Below, in pieces: positions 1 through 62,715 of a stretch of DNA of 64,000 nt. Below the pieces are notes generated by a model. It searched no databases, was not told where the DNA came from, and saw only the letters and a program-made list of their open reading frames with translations. Within the stretch, counting starts at the first letter, position 1, and the number at the start of each line of letters is the position of its first letter. Both the position numbers and the translations under genes were made by a program. Source of the stretch: Cloeon dipterum (lineage: Eukaryota; Arthropoda; Insecta; Ephemeroptera; Baetidae); contig NC_088788.1 of the NCBI RefSeq assembly GCF_949628265.1, positions 34,520,335 through 34,584,334 of the forward strand. Direction: 5' to 3'.

Positions 1-1122
1 GTCTGGCCTGGACAACTTCATGCTTGAAGGCCACCCGACTTTCAAGACTGCAACTTGTGATACCCTGGAATCCTTCCTCCAAAGGTTGCCGCCACCTGTC
101 TGTCTGGTAGCGCATAACGGCCACCGATTCGACTTTCCGCTTTTGGCCAAAGAATTTCTCTACGCTAAAAGGGTGAGATTTTGGAGTTAATTTAAAAAAA
201 AAACTGCAAACCAAATCATCTAAAATTGACCGTCGAAAATTAAGTAAATCAGCTAAGAATCCACTTCAAAACGCTTTGGTCAGATGTTGAAACGTGATTT
301 CAACTAGAAAAAAATAATAAACGAATAAAAATACCTCTCTTCTAGTTTGTGAGGACGCGGGAGGGTAATGGATAAAATAAAGAAATTAAACACTTGACTT
401 TTTGTTTAACTTTTTTACTGCAAAAAACTAGTGAAAGAATTTGTATACCATTATTTCACAAGAAAAACACCCTCCTAAATAGATTAAAATAATCTTTTTA
501 ATGCATCGAATCCAAAAATATTTCAACAAATTTATATTTTTATTCTATAAACTGTATACCGTATTAACCCATTTAAATTCATTCCAGGAAATTCCAAATA
601 ACATTTTGTGCGCTGACACTCTGCCCTGCTTTCGTGAATTGCTAAGTCCAGAAAAAGTTGCCAAGCAAGTAATTCCCAGGCGCCGGCTAAACTTTGGTGC
701 AACCAAGCAAACAAGCTCCGTAAGTCAATTTGAATGTTCCTTCACTGTCATGTCACAGAATAAAATTATTTTTCCAGCAAAACTCTTATGAATTCGACTC
801 GCCGGAACTGGAGGCCGAAATGGTCGCCGTTGCAGAGGCAGTAGAGCGAGAGTACATGCTCAAGTCCCAGCAAACCCCTGTAACGCCACCAGTGACCCCT
901 ACACAACTGGCGAGAATCCAGGAAAGCACTCCTGAACGCAAAAAACCCAAATCTTTTCGTCTGGGCGACCTGGTGCAGCAGTTAGCGCCCGAATTCAGGG
1001 TGGACGCCCTTCACTCAGCCGAGGGAGACGTAATGGCCCTGCTGCACTGCGCCTCTGCCCTTGTTGACCAGTTTGTTCCCTGGATTAACAAACATGCGAA
1101 AATTTTTCCTGTGCAAAGTTAA
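1..1122 (+). CDS. TREX-like 3'-5' exonuclease, copy 1 (5' end outside window)
   Basis: DEDDh-family exonuclease related to TREX1/TREX2, which remove nucleotides from DNA 3' ends. Exons are 1-172 (partial), 588-719 and 778-1122, joined in phase 0 by GT-AG introns of 415 and 58 bp. The first exon ends in the Exo II motif AHNGHRFDFPLL, with the catalytic Asp present. The last exon has Exo III as HSAEGD, with catalytic His and Asp present, after a Pro/Thr-rich stretch (TPPVTPT) and a basic linker. The Exo I motif lies before the window. The protein stops shortly after FVPW, with no hydrophobic tail, so it resembles TREX2 or the short arthropod TREX more than membrane-anchored TREX1. It is the first of three tandem copies and keeps every catalytic residue that can be seen. 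Confidence 0.88.
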
Positions 1123-1402
1123 TTTGTACCCCAAAATTATATTTTTTCTGTATTATACATATTTTTAGTGTATGCCATGTGAAATATACAATTTGAACTT
1201 TTTAAAACATTTTTAATTAATTACATTTTTTGCACATGTATATCATTAACTGAGAATTAAAGAGCGCGAGGTGCTCATTGATGTTTTTCGTTTCTCAATT
1301 ACATACTGAGAGAGTCATTTACTTTTGCAAAAGACAATATTATATAATTTTGCGAAACATTTTATAAAGTAAGCTAATTCCGAGAAGAAGTATTCAGTGC
1401 AT

Positions 1403-1408
1403 AATAAA
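1403..1408 (+). terminator. Poly(A) signal of TREX copy 1
   Basis: AATAAA about 280 bp after the stop codon. The surrounding sequence (AGAAGTATTCAGTGCATAAT) recurs at the ends of copies 2 and 3, which marks it as the shared 3' end of the gene family. Confidence 0.6.
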
Positions 1409-2934
1409 TAGAGGTCTCAGCCAGCAGCGTATATGTTTTATATTCAATTCAATTAGATCATTTTATAATTAATTTAATTAATAGATATTATGTCTGTTGT
1501 ACACCTTTTGGTGTTTAATAAATATTTCATTCATAATTAATTTAATATTTCATTAAAAAGTTTTGAACACGACAATATGATAAAAGTGATATTAAGTAGG
1601 ATTAGTGGGGGGAGTACAAAATTGTGATACCCTTGAACGGAAAAAATACCATCTGTGAGAAAATCTGGCAGGATTCTTGATTGATTTTGATAATTATTAA
1701 CAAAAACAGAACACCGCAAAAGGGCGAAGCCCTCAAGCATTCGGAATATTTAGTTAACATTTTCCGCTTTTTATGTCACATGAAATAATTTAAATGTTTG
1801 ATTTAATGGTTTACCTCGGTTGGCCCATTTGTTCCTGAGGAATGTTATTGTGTGATGGAGATAAATTATAATATTATTAATAATACCATATTTAGTTTGT
1901 TTCCCACTATTCAAAAATGATATCGTAATATAACAACATTTAAAATGAAAAACATTATTATTTTATAAATTTAGAAACAGAAGATTGCATTGGTCAACTT
2001 TGTGATTAGAAGAGTTACATCGAGTTACATATTATTAATTATTATAAGCCTTTTCTAGAATTAACACACGATCAAAATAATAATAAAAAAACTGCGCATT
2101 TAAGAAGTGTTTTATTTAGTCAAATTTTATTTTCTTTATCATTTTAGTAATTTTTCGTTCGTACAAGTATTTGAATAGATATAAAGATTTTTTTTTAAAT
2201 ATTTATAGAAGGATAAAAACCACAAAAAGAGCAAAGCGATTACCCTCTATATAATGCTCCAATCCTAAAAAACGAGTTTCAGTGAACAGAAGTCTCAGAA
2301 GTGCTCGGATATGTCGTAGACTATGGCAATTGGCAATCCTCTCTTCATAGACTCATTTTTTTTAAAAACATTATGTTTTTTGACAGAACCACGTAATTTT
2401 GGGGTTTTTAAACGAAGTAATTTTAATTTAAACAACTCAGTGACTTCTTGTGTTTCTTTATGTTTGTTAAAAATGTCCAAAATGCATTGGAATGCTCAGC
2501 AAGTGGAAAATGTAAGTCAATTTAAAAAAGTCTGATTTCAGAACCTAACTAAATAAGCCTCAGCGATGTCCCTTTTCAAATTTGAAGCGAACAGATATTA
2601 TAACATGTTTATTCTACCATCACAGTAATAATTTAATTGCTGGTACTTCAAGCCTATAGTTGAAGATAAAAAAACAGTACTAAAGAAATTTTATTTACTT
2701 TTTTGTTCATTGGGACACAACTAAAAAATTCAATTTCAACTTATACTCTATTTTATGGAAAATGAGTTAAAAATGAAGATGATGTTCTATTTCTTGACGT
2801 GCTTTTAACTTTCGGATGTTAACATGAAACACCAGTCAAAATTTTTCTATCTAGCATTGTTTTCGATCTACTGTCTAGATAAAATGTGTTTTGGATAGCC
2901 TAAATATCGAATAAAAATCCAAAATTTGTTCAAC
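1409..2934. other. Spacer after TREX copy 1
   Basis: AT-rich spacer with no supported gene. About 1495-1530 (TTTTGGTGTTTAATAAAT) resembles the 3' tail of a LINE. The part at about 2600-2830 matches 6645-6870 after copy 2, so it belongs to the tandem unit. A 70-codon frame at 2323-2535 has no recognisable motif. Confidence 0.5.
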
Positions 2935-3190
2935 AATGATGATTTTAGGTTTAAAGATATCTCTTAACGTGCACGATTTCCGCTTAAATGTTGGCTTCAC
3001 TCTGTCCAGATTTCTAATTAGCAGTTGTTGATTTTTATGACCAAATAAGCTTCACAAAAGCTCCACTAGAAATTGCAACACAATTTCCCGATTCGCACAA
3101 TGTGTCACATTAAATTTAGGAAATTTAGTAAACGTGTGTAACAGTAGTCCCCAACACAATTGATTTAAGGCCAGAATATTCAGCGCATGA
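2935..3190 (+). repeat. Extra copy of the TREX upstream segment, without a gene
   Basis: This stretch aligns with 3828-4110, directly upstream of copy 2, and partly with 7330-7450 upstream of copy 3. Shared words include GTTCAACAA, CACGATTTCCG and AAATTGCAACACAATTT. No TREX exon follows it, so it is either a partial duplication or the remains of a lost copy. Confidence 0.65.
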
Positions 3191-3239
3191 ATAATTGTTC
3201 TGTGCCGATATGGTAACGACGTGAATTTTCAGGCGCCCA

Positions 3240-3540
3240 CAGGGGAGAGCGGAGGGAGAAACTCATTGTCAGGTATCAATAAAAGCACCGCAATTTGCTG
3301 AGATCCTTCCTATCTCGAGCGCGCGACTTGCTCGCACACACACACACACATTCGCTCTCCTGACCACACGCGAGCTAGAGGCTAATTCTCTCGCTCCTCC
3401 CTCTGGGTAGCCAAGCTGTACGTTCGCCGCTATCATCAATAAACTGGTATGGTATGGTGTAACCAGGTAGTCTTCCTTCTCGGACGCTTTTGTCCACCCC
3501 GCACCCCTTTAACGTAAATTATGCCGTCCTCGGGCTGACG
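3240..3540. mobile_element. GC-richer insert in the tandem unit, possible solo LTR
   Basis: Similarity between the TREX upstream segments breaks near 3200-3240 and resumes near 3541, which matches 7120. The insert is richer in GC than its surroundings, has a (CA)n run near 3338-3350 and an AATAAA near 3438 followed by a GT-rich tail. That layout suits a solo LTR, but clear LTR ends and a target-site duplication were not identified. Confidence 0.3.
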
Positions 3541-4166
3541 TTTTTTCTGCAGTTTGTGTTAAGAATTATTATTAGAGTAAAATTGCCCCCATAAATATTG
3601 TTATATTTTTCATTCTCGCAAAATTAAATGAACTTAAAATTAAATATTGCATTTAAATTAAATAATATTGCATTTAAAATAAAAAATTACGCACACTCAG
3701 GATGTTCATTGAAATTTTAAGCTTCAAATAACTCAAATATACGAGCATGTATTTTGTTCTTGTATTGAACATGCACAATTTTGAATTTTGTGATGTTAAG
3801 AAAACCTAAAAAATTATTATAAATCCAAACTTTGTTCAACAAACGATGATTTTTGGTATAAAGATTCCTCTTGATGTTCACGATTTCCGTTTAAATATTG
3901 GCTTCACTCTGACCCGATTTTCTTATTTGAAATTAATTTTTATTTTTTTAGTTTTTTTATACCAAAATCGCATTACAAAAGCTCCGCTAGAAATTGCAAC
4001 ACAATTTGATGATTTAAATGCCACAATAAACTTAGTAAACGTCTGTCGAACAATAATCCCCAACACAATTGATTCAAGGCCCCATATTCGGCCAGCAGTA
4101 TGTTTCAAATTTCCCAAATCGGGTGTCTAAAGCTATAATATTGTGTTGTGCCTGCAGCTAGGAGCA

Positions 4167-5521
4167 ATGGACGCACCGCAAATTGAACAGCAAGGCAAGG
4201 GCGTGCGCACCCTCGCCTTCTTCGACCTGGAGACGACCGGCCTGCAGCACGAGCAGCCCAGGATGCGTGTCACCGAGCTGTCCATCGTCGCGGTCACGGT
4301 CGCCGACCTGAGAGCCGCGTCGCCGCGTTTGCCGCGCATTCTGCACAAGCTTACAATGTGCATGAACCCCTGTTCGCCTGTCCACCCAATCGCCAGCCAG
4401 GTGTCTGGCCTGGACAACTTCATGCTTGAAGGCCACCCGACTTTCAAGACTGCAACTTGTGATACCCTGGAATCCTTCCTCCAAAGGTTGCCGCCACCTG
4501 TCTGTCTGGTAGCGCATGATGGCCACCGATTCTACTTTTCGCTTTTGACCAGAGAATTTCTCTACGCTAAAAGGGTGAGATTTTGGAGTTAATTAAAAAA
4601 AAAACTGCAACCTAAATCATCTTAAATTGACCGTCGAAAATTAAGTAAATCAGCTAAGAATCCACTTAAAAACGCTTTGTTCAGATGTTGAAACGTGATT
4701 TCAACTTGAAAAATAATTTAAACGAATAAAAATACCTCTTTTCTTTTTTGTGAGGACGCGGGAGGGTAATGGATAAAATAAAGAAATCAAACACCTGACT
4801 TTTTGTTTAGATTTTTTCTGCAAAAAAAACTAGGGAAAGAATTTGTATACCAACATTTCACAAGAAAAACAGCCTGCAAAATAGATCAAAATACTTTTTA
4901 ATGGATAAAATCCAAAAATATTTCGACAAATTTATATAATTTTTGCTACAACTTTATCCCGGATTAACCCACCCGAATTTTTTCCAGGCATTTCCAAATA
5001 ACATTTTGTGCGCTGACACTCTGCCCTGCTTCCGTGAATTGCTAAATCCGGAAAAAGTTCCCAAGCAAGTAATTCCCAGGCGCCGGCGAAACTTTGGTGC
5101 AACTCAGCAATCATGCTCGGTGAGTAAATTTGAATGACCTTCATTGCCAACAACTGCCATGTCACAAAATAAAATATTTTTCCAGCAAAACTGTCACAAA
5201 CTCGACTCGTCGGAACTGGAGGCCAAAACGGTCGGCGTTGCAGAGGCAGCGGAGCGAGAGCCCCAGCAGACCCCTGAAATGCCGCCAGTGACAATCCAGG
5301 AAAGCACTCCTAATAAACGCAAAAAACCCAAATCGTTTCGTGAGGACGACCTGGTGCAGCAGTTAGCGCCCGAATTCAAGGCAGACACCCTTCAGTCGGT
5401 CGAGGGAGACGTAATGGCCCTGCTGCACTGCGCCTCTGCCCGTGTTGACCAGTTTGTTCCCTGGATTAACGAACATGCAGAAGTGTTTCCAGTGCTTAAA
5501 GCGTCGAAAATATTTAGGTAA
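4167..5521 (+). CDS. TREX-like exonuclease, copy 2: catalytic residues substituted
   Basis: Three exons, 4167-4574, 4988-5119 and 5186-5521, give 291 residues in phase 0. The ATG in GAGCAATGG is chosen because copy 3 starts identically and the protein then begins just before Exo I. Exo I (FFDLETTGL, D20 and E22) is intact. In Exo II the invariant Asp is Tyr (HRFYFSLL, residue 123). In Exo III the catalytic His is Gln (QSVEGD, residue 250), with the Asp kept at 255. From knowledge of the DEDDh family, each of these changes should abolish or cripple catalysis, yet the reading frame and all splice sites are intact. The C-terminus also differs, ending FPVLKASKIFR rather than FPVQG/S, next to a LINE fragment. 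It could be a regulatory pseudoenzyme, a decoy dimer partner or a young pseudogene. Confidence 0.85.
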
Positions 5522-5559
5522 TAAAATTGGCAATAATCCCGTCCCTATACAATATTAAT

Positions 5560-5760
5560 GCACCCTTTTGCAATACGCAGCCAACGTCGCCATATATAAG
5601 ATGTCGTGCCAAGAAGACGCGGATGAATTTCAAGACGGACTTAACAACATCGATATTTGGTCAGCTGGGGTCTGCACACGGACATCGTGCGGGCGAAAGC
5701 GGCGCAGCTTTGCACGAGGGTGCTCGCCGCGAGTAATAAGAATCGCGTCTCTGACTATCG
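5560..5760 (+). pseudogene. LINE reverse-transcriptase fragment
   Basis: The frame from about 5569 reads QYAANVAIYKM then QEDADEFQDGLNNIDIW. This matches the part of non-LTR retrotransposon RT domains just after the catalytic YADD box (YADDVKIYK.., ..DLNNI..W). The box itself is mutated to YAAN. The frame decays after about 5645. The fragment interrupts the 3' UTR that copy 2 shares with copies 1 and 3: similarity to their 3' ends resumes only near 6060-6320. Confidence 0.5.
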
Positions 5761-6312
5761 TTCAACTAGTATTCACCTATATCTTAAGACGATTATTTGT
5801 AATCACAATTATTATTAATCTTTTATTGCTTTATCGACATGTATTTTATTTTAATCGTTATATTTTATTTAATAATAATATTTCTACACTTTAATCGTTC
5901 GATGTTTAATTTGTCCGCACACACCAGCAACATATTAACTCATTTGAAGGGTCGATTCCACGAGCTGAGATGAAATTAAATTTTAGTCCTGAGTTACAGT
6001 CGAATTTTCGTTAGTTTTTAATAATAACGACTTTTGTATTGTTGGAAAAATAGTTTTTACCACAAAATGTTTTTTTAGCTCTATATGCCACAAATGTTTA
6101 ACTTTATTTTTAACTTTGATTTGTCAAAATTACATAATTCGCTGTCTTATACATGCGTATCATTAACGCAGAATTAAGGAGCACGCGGTGCAGTTTGTTT
6201 TCGTTTCTCATTATTACACAACGTCATTTACTTTTGCAAAAATAAAAATATTTTATATTATATTTTACACGAAACATTTAAAGCATACTCCTAGAAGAAG
6301 TGTCCAGTGCCT

Positions 6313-6318
6313 AATAAA
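6313..6318 (+). terminator. Poly(A) signal of TREX copy 2
   Basis: AATAAA in the same context as in copies 1 and 3 (GTGTCCAGTGCCTAAT). It lies about 790 bp after the stop, against about 280 and 115 bp in the sisters, because LINE-derived sequence lengthens the 3' UTR. Confidence 0.5.
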
Positions 6319-6369
6319 TAAAAACTGTGATCTAGACACAGTTTTCCTGCCTTCGTTATCTCACGAGTT

Positions 6370-6602
6370 CTGAGTTTGCACTGATTGATTGACTGAGTGG
6401 TTCTCTTGATGATAGACACTTCCTTCGTTTCTGCAACGCGATTATACAAATTATTTCGATTTAAATTGACTTCCGATATCAATCAAGTCAGCTGAACTAA
6501 AGCTTTCCGAGCTTTCGAGATCTGTTGGGATCTTTATTTTTTTCCCTTCATAATTTTTCGGGGATTAATGAGATCTTTAGGGTTGAGAGTTGAAGTCACC
6601 CC
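6370..6602 (+). repeat. Direct repeat A of the TREX downstream segment
   Basis: About 233 bp aligning end to end with 9855-10088 after copy 3. Shared words include GATGATAGACAC, TTCGTTTCTGCAACGC and TTTTTCGGGGAT. It extends the tandem unit about 0.3 kb (copy 2) to 1 kb (copy 3) beyond the poly(A) signal. No coding capacity is convincing. Confidence 0.75.
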
Positions 6603-7530
6603 GTCATCAGGCAGCAAGCCAAGCCAGAACATATATATTAGAAATGTTTAATCTACCATCACAGTAACAATTTAATTGGTACTTAAAGCCCAGTTGAAGA
6701 TTAAAACAATAAAGTGCATGTCGCATTCCTGTTAAAATTTATTTACAATTTATTTCATTGGGACACAACTAAAAATTATTAATTTCAACTTATATACTGT
6801 ATTTTACGGAAAATGAGTTATAAATTAAATTAAGATAATATGCTCTACTTGACGTGCTTGGCTTTCGGTTAATCAAGATTAATTTAAATTGCGTCCCTGT
6901 TCCTTTTATCTTCTTATCTGTGGTACTTTTAGATAACAACAAATAATGAAACCTAAATCATCCCATACTATATGCGGCTATCAGTTTCGCTTCTTGACGT
7001 GTCAGGTAAAAACACTTTTTTTACGTCCGAATGGATTTTATCCGGTTTTGTCCTCCTAAACAGGTTCCTGAAGTGTGAGCAAATAGCCAATATCCTAAAA
7101 TTATTTTATTTTTTTTCCGCAGTTATAGGGTTTAGAATTATTATTAGAGCAAAAGTACCTCCATAAATAAAATATTTTTCACTCTCTCAAAATTAAAATA
7201 ACTTTAAATTAAATTGCATTTAAAAAAAAAATACGCGAAATGAAAATATTTATTGAAATTTTAAGCTTCAAGCACCCAGCATGTATTTTGTTTTTGTATT
7301 AAACGTGCAAAATTTTGAATTTTATTTTTTACAAGCTCCTCTAGAAATTGCAACACAATTTACCGATTAAAGTGTCACCATAAATTTAGTAAACGTCTGT
7401 CTAACAGTAGTCCCCAAGACAATTCATTTAAGGCCACCATATTCGGCGAGCAGTATTTTAACTGCTCAAGGTTTTGCTTCCAAATCAGGTATCTAAAGCT
7501 AAAATTGTGTTGTGCCTGCAGCTAGGAGCA
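6603..7530. other. Spacer and upstream region of TREX copy 3
   Basis: AT-rich. About 6645-6870 matches 2600-2830, and 7120-7500 matches 3541-4140. The block at 7330-7450 (GAAATTGCAACACAATTT, AAACGTCTGTC) is conserved before copies 2 and 3 and probably includes promoter or 5' leader. A CCTGCAG just before the ATG of both copies could be the acceptor of a 5' UTR intron. Confidence 0.45.
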
Positions 7531-8901
7531 ATGGACACATCGCACATTAAACAGCAAGGCGAGGGCGTGCGCACCCTCGCCTTCTTCGACCTGGAGACGA
7601 CCGGCCTGCCGCACGAGCAGCCCAGGGTGCGTGTCACCGAGTTGTCCGTCGTCGCGGTCACGGTCGCCGACCTGAGAGCCGCGTCGCCGCGTTTGCCGCG
7701 CATTCTGCACAAGCTTACAATGTGCATGAACCCCTGTTCGCCCGTCTACCCAATGGCAAGCCAGGTGTCTGGCCTGGACAACTTCATGCTTGACAACCAC
7801 CCGACCTTCAAGACTGTTACGTGCGATACCCTGGAATCCTTCCTCCAAAGATTGCCGCCACCAGTGTGTTTGGTAGCGCACAATGGCCACCGATTCGACT
7901 TTCCGCTTTTGGCCAAAGAGTTCCTCTACGCTAAAAGAGTGAGATGTTGGAATTTACTAAAAAAAGAAAACTGTAACCCAAATCGTCTTAATTTGACTGC
8001 CAATAATTAACTAAATCACAAAATCTGTTTAAAAACGCTTTGGTCAGAAGTTGATTTAAATAACTTGTGATAAACTTAAAAAAATACCTATCTCTACTCT
8101 TTTTTCTTGTGGAATGCGGGTGTGAGATGAAAATTAGTTGACTCTTTGGTTTTGAAATTTTTCTGCAAAAAAAAACTAATATATTTTTCTTACCCTTATT
8201 CTCAAAAGAAGAAGCCTCAAAAATGGATAGAAAAAACCTTTTAAGGGATGAAAACTTAGAAAACAAAACAAAAAATATTTTGAAAGATTTTTATTTTTCT
8301 ATTTTATATGATTATCATAATTATTGCTACAATTATATCCCAAATTAACCCATTTGATTTTTTCCAGGCATTTCCAAATAACATTTTGTGCGCTGACACT
8401 CTGCCCTGCTTTCGTGAATTGCTCAGGACGGAACGAGTTCCCAAGCAAGTAATTCCCAAGCGCCGCCGGCTTGACTTTGACGCCACTCAACAAATAAACT
8501 CGGTGAGTCAATTTGAATGTTCCCTCACTGTCATGTCACAAAATAATAATAATAATAAATTCCAGCAAAACTCTCACGAATTCGACTCACCGATACTGGA
8601 GGCTGAAATGGTCAGCGCTGCAGAGGCAGTGGAGCAAGAGTCCCAGCAGACCTCTGTAACGCCGCCAGTGACCCCTACACAAATGGCGAGAATCCAGGAA
8701 AGCACTCCTAATAAACGCAAAAAACCCAAATCGTTTCGTCTGGGCGACCTGGTGCAGCAGTTAGCGCCCGAATTTAGGGCGGACGCCCTTCACTCAGCCG
8801 AGGGAGACGTAATGGCCCTTCTGCACTGCGCTTCTGTCCTTGTTGACCAGTTTGTTCCCTGGATTAATGAGCATGCGAAAATGTTTCCTGTGCAAGGTTA
8901 A
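7531..8901 (+). CDS. TREX-like 3'-5' exonuclease, copy 3 (complete, intact)
   Basis: Exons 7531-7938, 8368-8502 and 8566-8901 give a 292-residue protein, phase 0 throughout; introns are 429 and 63 bp. All DEDDh residues are present: Exo I FFDLETTGL (D20, E22), Exo II AHNGHRFDFPLL (D123) and Exo III HSAEGD (H257, D262). A Pro-rich segment (TPPVTPT) before Exo III resembles the proline-rich loop of TREX1. There is no C-terminal membrane segment. Known TREX enzymes act as dimers on single-stranded or mismatched DNA 3' ends and limit cytosolic DNA. This copy serves as the reference for judging copy 2. The second intron contains a short (AAT)n run just before its acceptor. Confidence 0.9.
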
Positions 8902-59737: not shown

Positions 59738-60571
59738 CTAAACCCTTTGAAGAGGCACTTGGTGAATCTGATGACCAGTCTTGAGCTGAAGTTGGGTAAC
59801 GGGAAATGAGGCTGGAGGTGGAGAGGGCTGTTGTGTCAGGGCGGTCTTCAAACGCGTCTCCTGGTCCCCGAGAGCCCAGCCAATGCTGACGTGAAAATGC
59901 CGACTTTCGTAGTACGGTGGGAGCCGATATTCAGCTCCAGCTGCTTCTGCCAGAGAGCAAGCCGCCTCCAAACCGCCTCCGATAGCCTCCACACTGATAA
60001 AAGTCCTAGTTTGCTCGTCATTCACAAACACTGCCACACCTCCAAACATAATCTGAAAATCATAAACAAATAATAAGAGAAATTGATTTTAAATATATTT
60101 TTACTACCTCAAATTGTTTTAGTTGCGCCGCACGCTTTCTAAGGTCAGCAAGAAGAGGAGCAATCCAAATGTGTCTCAACTGAAGCGGCCGACTGAGACT
60201 CACATGAAGTGGAGGAGTGCATCGATTCACACCTTCCAAGCTGTCAAGCAAACGAGTCCACCCGCTGATCGGTTGTCCAATCTCTATGCTCACCAATCCT
60301 GCCCACATTCCTCTCTCATGGGCGAAACTTCTCACCTAACAAATAAATAAATACGAATTTCACAGTGTTTTTCAATGAATGAATATTTATATACCCGGCC
60401 TTGATGCATCGATGGATCATCCTGATGAGCATTCTCATCATTGCCAGGAAATAACGCGATGATGCTTGACGGAACTTCAAGTTTAACAAACTTGACAGGC
60501 TCTACTTTCAGTGGCGTCCCATCTTCAGATTCTGATCCTGAGCTCGACTCGTAACATTTTAGGAGGTCCAT
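59738..60571 (-). CDS. USB1: USB1, U6 snRNA 3' phosphodiesterase
   Basis: USB1 (Mpn1) is a 2H phosphodiesterase that trims the oligo(U) tail of U6 snRNA and leaves a protected 3' end. Exons 60395-60571, 60108-60335 and 59738-60052 join in phase 0 to give 239 residues; human USB1 has 265. The two catalytic H-x-S motifs are present: PLHVSLSR (His103) and FHVSIGWALG (His189). QGRVRSFAHERGMWAG matches the conserved segment before the first motif, and VTQLQLKTGHQIHQVPL matches the family's end. The acidic Ser-rich start (SSSGSESEDG) is typical. ATG 60569-60571 is chosen because an acceptor (ACATACAG) lies at 60585-60592, so the upstream in-frame ATG is intronic. Confidence 0.92.
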
Positions 60572-60949: not shown

Positions 60950-61225
60950 AGATATATATACAACAAAGTTGTATATACAACAATGTATATCCTATATATA
61001 CAACAATGTTGTATACCTACAACAATGAATAACCTATATATACAACAATGTTGTATACCTACAACAACGGTATATCCTATATATACAACAATGTTGTATA
61101 CCTACAACAACGGTATATCCTATATATACAACAATTGTTGTATACCTACAACAACGGTATATCCTATATATACAACAATTGTTGTATACCTACAACAACG
61201 GTATGTCCTATACCTACAACAATAG
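60950..61225. repeat. Palindromic minisatellite, unit 43-44 bp
   Basis: About six units of CCTATATATACAACAATGTT... with the second half GTATACCTACAACAACGGTA. Each unit contains the palindrome TATACAACAATTGTTGTATA or a one-base-shorter version. Long open frames across it (YIYNN.. / IPTT.. repeats) are a product of the repetition. Confidence 0.85.
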
Positions 61226-61259
61226 CAATCTGGCAACATCGCAGAATGGGCGGCAACGA

Positions 61260-61423
61260 CAAGCACTGAAAATGAAAAGCCCGTGGACGACACCGACTGC
61301 CGGCGCCGGCTCACGGTCGTCGCCGCCATCTTGCCAAGCGGAGAGCGGAGCGCGGACCGGAGCGGAACTGTGAAAATTCCGGAAAACGAAGCCACGAGCA
61401 CCAGAAAACAGGAAATGCTAGTG
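61260..61423 (+). promoter_or_regulatory. YY1-motif promoter and 5' exon of a plus-strand transcript
   Basis: A CpG-rich block contains GCCGCCATCTTG (61322-61333), the YY1 site common just after start sites of housekeeping promoters. It ends at GCTAGTG|GTAAGC, a good donor, at 61423. An acceptor (TATTGTTCACAG) follows 69 bp later. I infer the 5' leader of the plus-strand gene whose first ATG is at 63820. Confidence 0.45.
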
Positions 61424-61492
61424 GTAAGCGAACAAAGAAAGCGGTCGCCAACTTTGCAAATCACACAGGAAGATTCGCCGTATTGTTCACAG

Positions 61493-62313
61493 GGACAAAC
61501 GACCTGGGGACGACCCTGCGCGTCCAAGTCTGGACGGTGCCGATTCCCGCGTGGCATGGACACGACCCGAGGAAGGAAGGATTTGGCCTTGTTGAGGTGA
61601 GTTTTAGCAGTGAAATTAGCACTGTGGGCTAATAATAAACCTGCCTTGTCTAGGTTGAGCAGCAGGCCCAGCAAATGTCGTCCGCAGTGGCGACGAAATG
61701 CAAAACAGGACACCTGGACGGTGCCGATTTTTGTTCGGTCGAGGAAGGAAGGGTTAGGCCTTGTTGAGGTGAGATTTAGCAGTGAAATTAGCACTGTGGG
61801 CTAATAATAAACCTGCCTTGTCTAGGTTGAGCAGCAGGCCCAGCAAATGTCGTCCGCAGTGGCGACGAAATGCAAAACAGGACACCTGGATGGTGCCGAT
61901 TTTTGTTCGGTCGAGGAAGGAAGATTTTTGTGCGGTCGAGGAAGGAAGGGTTAGGCCTTGTTGAGGTGAGTATTTTAGCAGTGAAATTAGCACTGTGGGC
62001 TAATAATAAACCTGCCTTGTCTAGGTTGAGCAGCAGGCCCAGCAAATGTCGTCCGCAGTGGCGTTCAAATGCAAAACAGGACACCTGGACGGTGCCGATT
62101 TTTGTGCGGTCGAGGAAGGAAGGGTTAGGCCTTGTTGAGGTGAGTATTTTAGCAGTGAAATTAGCACTGTGGGCTAATAATAAACCTGCCTTGTCTAGGT
62201 TGAGCAGCAGGCCCAGCAAATGTCGTCCGCAGTGGCGTTCAAATGCAAAACATGACACCTGGACGGTGCAGATTTTTGTGCGGTCGAGGAAGGAAGGGTT
62301 AGGCCTTGTTGAG
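61493..62313 (+). repeat. Tandem array of an exon-intron unit (172 bp)
   Basis: Each unit is a 115-bp segment bounded by an acceptor (CTTGTCTAG) and a donor (TTGAG|GTGAG) plus a 57-59-bp spacer. The 115-bp segments are at 61654-61768, 61826-61965 (140 bp, with a 25-bp internal duplication), 62025-62139 and 62199-62313. A diverged founder segment is at 61493-61596, also between acceptor and donor. The units are nearly identical, so amplification is recent. 115 is not a multiple of 3, and segment ends and starts do not keep one frame, so splicing them in would act as untranslated or frame-shifting exons. Very long frames on either strand arise from the 174-bp spacing of two units and are not taken as genes. 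Confidence 0.85.
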
Positions 62314-62351
62314 GTGAGTTTTAGCAGTGAAATTAGCACTGTGGGCTAATA

Positions 62352-62715
62352 ATGCTTCTTTCTACACATACCTCAAATTGACAGTCATCCTTGCAAATGT
62401 TTATTCGCCATTCATTTTAGCATGAATCTTATGATCTCCCAATCCAAAATATTGGTAAAGGGGGGGTATGTCAGTTTTTTGGAGAAAATATAATTAAATT
62501 ACAGTTACCGTGAATTCAATTGTACCTAGTTTACTGTAAAAATTTTTATTATATTATGGATGATGGGTGCACTGGACGTTGGTTGAATTAGAGGTGGATT
62601 TTGGATTGGGTGATCCATTAGATTTATGCTAAAATGAGTGGTGAGTAAACATTTTTCACGGATGACTGTCAATCACTTGAACCATCAATTTGAGGAATGT
62701 GTAGAAAGAAGCAGT
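62352..62715. mobile_element. MITE-like inverted repeat
   Basis: GCTTCTTTCTACACATACCT at 62352 is mirrored by GTGTAGAAAGAAGC ending near 62712. The arms continue inwards for about 110 bp (GACAGTCATCC, CCCAATCCAAAA and complements) with a 12-17-bp insertion in the right arm. It begins directly where the tandem exon array stops. Confidence 0.75.

Follow-up and report, generated by a model that had tools for sequence, protein, structure and literature searches.

Loss of constraint and of two catalytic residues in the middle copy of a tandem TREX-type triplet in Cloeon dipterum, probably a young decaying pseudogene

The middle gene of a tandem triplet of TREX-type exonuclease genes in Cloeon dipterum, which we call copy 2, is probably a young tandem duplicate, open in its reading frame and catalytically dead, that has lost selective constraint and is decaying into a pseudogene. 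This reading is favoured by the loss of constraint, by changes at conserved positions, by a replaced 3' end and by a repeat upstream of the gene. If copy 2 is a dying duplicate, it is a case of ordinary gene birth and death within a nuclease family.

The window, the whole stretch of 64,000 nucleotides that was analysed, is C3:34520335-34584334 of a 190.1-Mb genome. The three TREX-type genes lie in it head to tail, each with three exons and two GT-AG introns. By alignment of the copies, the five catalytic residues are all intact in copy 1 and all intact in copy 3, the two genes that flank copy 2:
1..1122, plus strand: copy 1, with its first 236 bases upstream of the window (start C3:34520099); exons to 172, 588-719 and 778-1122; 294 residues
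7531..8901, plus strand: copy 3; exons 7531-7938, 8368-8502 and 8566-8901; 292 residues

A DNA search gave copy 2 an identity to the other copies of 88% and 79% over the locus. When the genome was searched with protein and DNA queries and the best candidates were scored, no further TREX copies or relics were found beyond the three loci, and no relatives were confirmed in viral_contigs. There are 14 matches to the RNase_T family genome-wide. Six of these lie close together on C1, at 39.86-40.15 Mb (L002, L003 and L010), possibly as a cluster of other exonuclease-like genes; the three TREX copies are not among the 14. Among ten frames of the window that were scanned, an open frame at 59741-60088 on the minus strand matches the HVSL family (Pfam PF09749, E = 3.3e-17), which we take to be the family of the U6 snRNA phosphodiesterase USB1. 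Tandem arrays occupy 60953-62353, with one unit length near 44 bases and another near 172-199 bases; in the part with the longer unit, both strands carry long, overlapping open frames, which are unlikely to be genes. A bacterial-code scan of the window gave no tRNA genes, and a search for RNA genes there gave 0 Rfam matches at gathering scores.

Copy 2 (4167-5521, plus strand) is spliced from three exons through GT-AG introns to give 291 codons without an internal stop, in agreement with the initial annotation, which had described Exo I, both introns and the whole frame as intact. That annotation had also read the Exo II Asp as changed to Tyr123 and the Exo III His as changed to Gln250, and the alignment agrees, with Asp and His found at the equivalent positions in both copies 1 and 3. 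The parts of copy 2 and its main altered codons are as follows:
4167..4574, plus strand: exon 1, residues 1-136, with Exo I intact and Exo II altered, from splicing and alignment to copies 1 and 3
4533..4535, plus strand: codon 123, Exo II Asp to Tyr (D123Y, TAC), from alignment of the copies
4575..4987, plus strand: intron 1, GT-AG, 413 bases
4988..5119, plus strand: exon 2, residues 137-180
5120..5185, plus strand: intron 2, GT-AG, 66 bases, with an insertion of about 9 bases unique to copy 2
5186..5521, plus strand: exon 3, residues 181-291 and stop, with the Exo III His lost and the final eight residues without homology to the sister copies
5342..5347, plus strand: codons 233-234, Leu-Gly (common to the TREX chain 9l86) to Glu-Asp, from the alignments
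5393..5395, plus strand: codon 250, Exo III His to Gln (H250Q, CAG), from alignment of the copies

Exo I of copy 2 reads FFDLETTG and is intact. Two of the five DEDDh residues are replaced (D123Y and H250Q), and more copy 2 changes lie in or near the motifs, namely P27Q, N118D, P125S, L233E, G234D and A252V. Alignments of copy 3 to solved proteins place Tyr123 and Gln250 at the Exo II Asp and Exo III His sites; the number of the Exo II Asp we take to be D130. The available parts of the relevant papers give D123 and H188 of mouse TREX2 as active-site residues, with no digestion of ssDNA by the H188A enzyme (PMC6294518), and H195 of TREX1 as the general base (PMC5957452). The change P27Q falls at the place of the Pro in the Leu24-Pro25-Ser26 wedge of TREX1, as the wedge is defined in the accessible text of PMC5957452; this Pro is not conserved in 9l8a. 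Because the Exo II Asp and the Exo III His are lost, the copy 2 product, by comparison with the equivalent residues of TREX1 and TREX2, would be unable to cut DNA. A dead nuclease is the natural expectation, and the earlier view that copy 2 should be inactive is well supported by homology.

Homology and the presence of the motifs in order point to copy 2 as a TREX-type DEDDh exonuclease gene by descent. Copy 3 matched 32 distinct sequences among solved proteins, 28 of which are TREX1 or TREX2 by name, and copy 2 matched 30, again with 28 so named; the remaining matches of both are named exodeoxyribonuclease III. The top TREX-named match had E = 1.4e-29 for copy 3 and 3.3e-24 for copy 2. The overall top match of both copies was 9l8a, named exodeoxyribonuclease III (4.2e-30 and 7.2e-27, respectively). 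In the Pfam scan of copies 2 and 3, the RNase_T score of copy 2 was 21.7, below the curated cut-off of 24, and that of copy 3 was 31.5, above it. In the portion of PMC12206365 available, TREX1-like proteins of a mollusc are noted and TREX2 is described as being without exonuclease activity, a description contradicted by the assays in the corresponding portion of PMC6294518. No report of an insect TREX triplet or of a dead TREX paralogue was found in the titles and abstract starts of a largely open-access literature, and we do not claim absence from print.

Selective constraint was assessed by counting odd-one-out changes in the coding exons among the three copies of this one genome. The raw ratios of replacement to silent changes were 10:12 for copy 1, 23:29 for copy 3 and 39:7 for copy 2. 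For copy 2, four changes at residues 284-285, in the tail that lacks homology, were dropped, as was a silent change at the edge of an 18-base deletion; this left 36 replacement and 5 silent changes (41 of the 46 raw). The copy 3 count retains one change at a tail column. The ratio for copy 2, 36:5, differs from that for copies 1 and 3 pooled, 33:41 (Fisher, 3.7e-6). In a three-branch codon model over 282 codons, copies 1 and 3 shared an omega of 0.28 and copy 2 had one of 2.6 (p = 4e-6 for the difference), with the copy 2 value unlike 1 at p = 0.028. With three free omegas, copy 1 had 0.33 and copy 3 had 0.26. When the deletion-edge codon was dropped, the copy 2 omega was 3.35, unlike 1 at p = 0.010, with a likelihood bound of about 1.3 to above 12. 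Purifying selection has thus been lost in copy 2, with the estimate at or above neutral, as judged from an omega of 2.6-3.4 against 0.28 and from conserved positions that are not spared overall, residues 41-117 excepted. The dN/dS comparison among the copies, which the initial annotation had proposed as a check, therefore finds copies 1 and 3 constrained and copy 2 not, and fits the simpler alternative offered there, a young pseudogene. A copy 2 that still functions as a constrained TREX was considered and rejected, since no sign of purifying selection is seen outside residues 41-117.

A position counted as conserved if most of the copies carry the residue of the solved sequence, which was 9l8a and 9l86 together or, at sites such as 233-234 that align to one of them, that chain by itself. 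Of the 63 such positions, none is altered in copies 1 and 3 and seven are altered in copy 2. By simple arithmetic, an even scatter of the 35 replaced codons of copy 2 over 283 predicts about 7.8 departures. In the 195 comparable TREX-aligned columns, changes of copy 2 fall on 7 of the 63 conserved ones and on 9 of the remaining 132 (p = 0.40). A fold that is being kept should spare conserved positions, and copy 2 overall does not spare them. One long stretch of the gene is nevertheless free of copy 2 replacements, which counts against decay:
4287..4517, plus strand: residues 41-117, no copy-2-specific change, holding R57 and R107, from the alignments

None of the 35 replaced codons lies in this stretch, which holds 25 of the 63 conserved positions; if the changes were even, a gap this long would have P = 0.0002, for a stretch that was picked after inspection. 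From our reading of the alignments to solved proteins, R57 and R107 are equated with R62 and R114 of TREX1, and R97 of TREX1 aligns with His90 in all three copies. The part of PMC11373327 at hand assigns R114 and R97 to the dimerisation surface of TREX1, and R62 is named in the title of a reference cited in the part of PMC6294518 at hand. The stretch is not simply invariant, since copy 3 has replacements at five residues within it; copy 1 has three silent changes in its earlier part.

Along positions 1-8901, the pair of TREX copies that agrees shifts from place to place, giving the locus a mosaic look that is a sign of gene conversion. The silent and noncoding sites that single out one copy fall into 69 runs over 192 sites, compared with 104.4 expected, and 0 of 20,000 shuffles gave a number as low; uneven alignment quality could add to this clustering. 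Exchange among the TREX copies is likely. At 4379-4517, inside the clean stretch, copies 1 and 2 agree at 11 of 11 such sites, although this run alone is unremarkable since a longer run of 15 sites occurs elsewhere at the locus (P = 0.036). No silent copy 2 change lies in residues 41-117, but little over one is expected at the low silent rate of copy 2, and the absence is not decisive. Exchange with copy 1 could have produced the clean stretch and could also have kept the frame of a dying copy open; it is not distinguishable in these data from selection on a dimer surface.

Homology between copy 2 and its sister copies is lost near 5495, beyond which eight foreign residues and a new stop follow. 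Repeats are found on both sides of the gene:
3184..3515, plus strand: dispersed LTR-like repeat roughly 330 bases long, some 650 bases before copy 2
5496..6150, plus strand: sequence in place of the original stop and 3' flank of copy 2, made up in part of dispersed repeats, with an LTR-like piece at about 5860-6043

Pieces of 5496-6150 have 33 matches elsewhere in the genome besides itself, and several copies of the piece at about 5860-6043 are paired about 6.1-6.3 kb apart, a spacing as for the two LTRs of one element. The upstream repeat is listed at at least 40 other places, some of them paired about 9.5-9.7 kb apart and others at other distances. Judged from this spacing, both are probably remnants of LTR-type elements. 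Within 2899-4081, a segment is present twice (2899-3172 and 3805-4081), flanking the LTR-like repeat upstream of copy 2. No such pair is listed upstream of copies 1 or 3 in the copy alignment.

The combination of two catalytic losses with an open frame is not improbable for a young pseudogene. When 41 random changes were placed on the gene under five mutation models, 21-38% of the simulations were stop-free, and among the stop-free simulations at least two of the five catalytic residues were struck in about 10-12%. Decay of copy 2 would mean that it no longer performs a TREX job and that DNA clearance falls to copies 1 and 3, and the frame would survive because the copy is young and parts of it are refreshed by exchange with its sisters. 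Against decay, the splice sites of copy 2 are all intact, and omega is nominally above 1 rather than at 1. Moreover, the coding exons have no frame-breaking indel, the only copy-2-only coding deletion being that of 18 bases. The introns have three indels of 1-2 bases, identified by eye, two of which lie where copy 3 aligns poorly; if indels were spread evenly across roughly 479 bases of intron and 849 of coding sequence, simple arithmetic gives a chance of about 0.05 that all three would lie in introns. Non-catalytic roles keep some plausibility because replacements are nominally more frequent than under neutrality, the coding sequence is without small indels of the intron type and the dimer stretch is clean.

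One such role is that of a retained pseudoenzyme, which would not cut but would pair with copies 1 or 3 and restrain or retarget them, as the initial annotation had proposed. We consider this unlikely. In its favour, the stretch with the R62 and R114 equivalents is free of change while changes elsewhere nominally exceed neutral, and the frame and splice sites are intact; against it, the conserved positions outside 41-117 are changed about as often as the others, including L233E-G234D, and the low number of runs means that the clean stretch is explicable by exchange with copy 1. A parallel may be drawn with catalytic-site TREX1 alleles that act as dominant negatives in people, D18N, D200N and H195Y in the available part of PMC11373327, and TREX proteins need the dimer for proper DNA binding and activity, according to the available part of PMC6294518. 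Yet another dimer residue of TREX1, R97, is matched by His in every copy, the omega excess is lost without residues 181-232, a low-complexity loop (p = 0.107), and the 3' end of copy 2 is partly repeat debris. The proposal of a regulator has gained no positive support beyond what gene conversion and chance also explain. Somewhat less likely again is a dead TREX partner made by selection, with the dimer segment fixed and the active site and the rest changing faster than neutral; if true, this would be a gene-encoded counterpart of a dominant-negative TREX allele. To our knowledge, the tuning of TREX by a dead subunit is known from human disease alleles only, and an expressed copy 2 that paired with its sisters would put such tuning to a natural test.

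Selection may have favoured change in copy 2, but the evidence does not establish this. We consider it improbable that copy 2 is positively selected for a new role, one other than nuclease action or with an altered substrate, such as DNA or protein binding, unrelated to restraining the sisters. All 12 copy 2 changes in exon 1 are replacements, with omega at its bound and unlike 1 at p = 0.014, but exons 2 and 3 alone give omega = 1.85 (p = 0.19), and in three of four separate segments an omega above 1 is not significant. The excess is seen without the two catalytic codons (p = 0.0145), and also when codon 233 is left out together with them (p = 0.022). In neutral simulations, five or fewer silent changes of 41 occur at P = 0.003-0.05, depending on which of five mutation models is used. 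Replacements are commoner than silent and intron 1 changes (odds ratio 2.2, p = 0.010), but this becomes an odds ratio of 1.5 with p = 0.115 once intron 2 joins the neutral yardstick; the site numbers in both comparisons are approximate (630 replacement, 605 or 662 neutral), and the basis is a single genome. Errors of assembly or consensus are a very improbable source of Tyr123 and Gln250. Tandem arrays collapse easily; however, with 41 copy-2-only coding changes, distinct introns and flanks, and identities as low as those found between the copies, an error at just codons 123 and 250 is unlikely.

The motif order of the three copies is the same as in the DEDDh enzymes TREX1 and TREX2. Unlike them, copy 2 is without the Exo II Asp and the Exo III His, and its tail is non-native. 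The long low-complexity stretch before Exo III, present in all three copies, is unaligned to the solved chains shown in the searches with copies 2 and 3. The His to Gln exchange of copy 2 is the same as that at the equivalent position in the H195Y/Q alleles of human TREX1, which are among the disease-linked catalytic changes in the available part of PMC11373327. The human changes are alleles of a single TREX1 gene, whereas here the exchange is in one of three tandem copies in an assembly, and copy 2 adds the Asp to Tyr change and five more changes at TREX-conserved positions. Like young pseudogenes from tandem duplication in general, copy 2 combines relaxed constraint with sisters that remain constrained, belongs to a mosaic of copies and has repeats at its ends. 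It differs from them in having no stop or frameshift yet.
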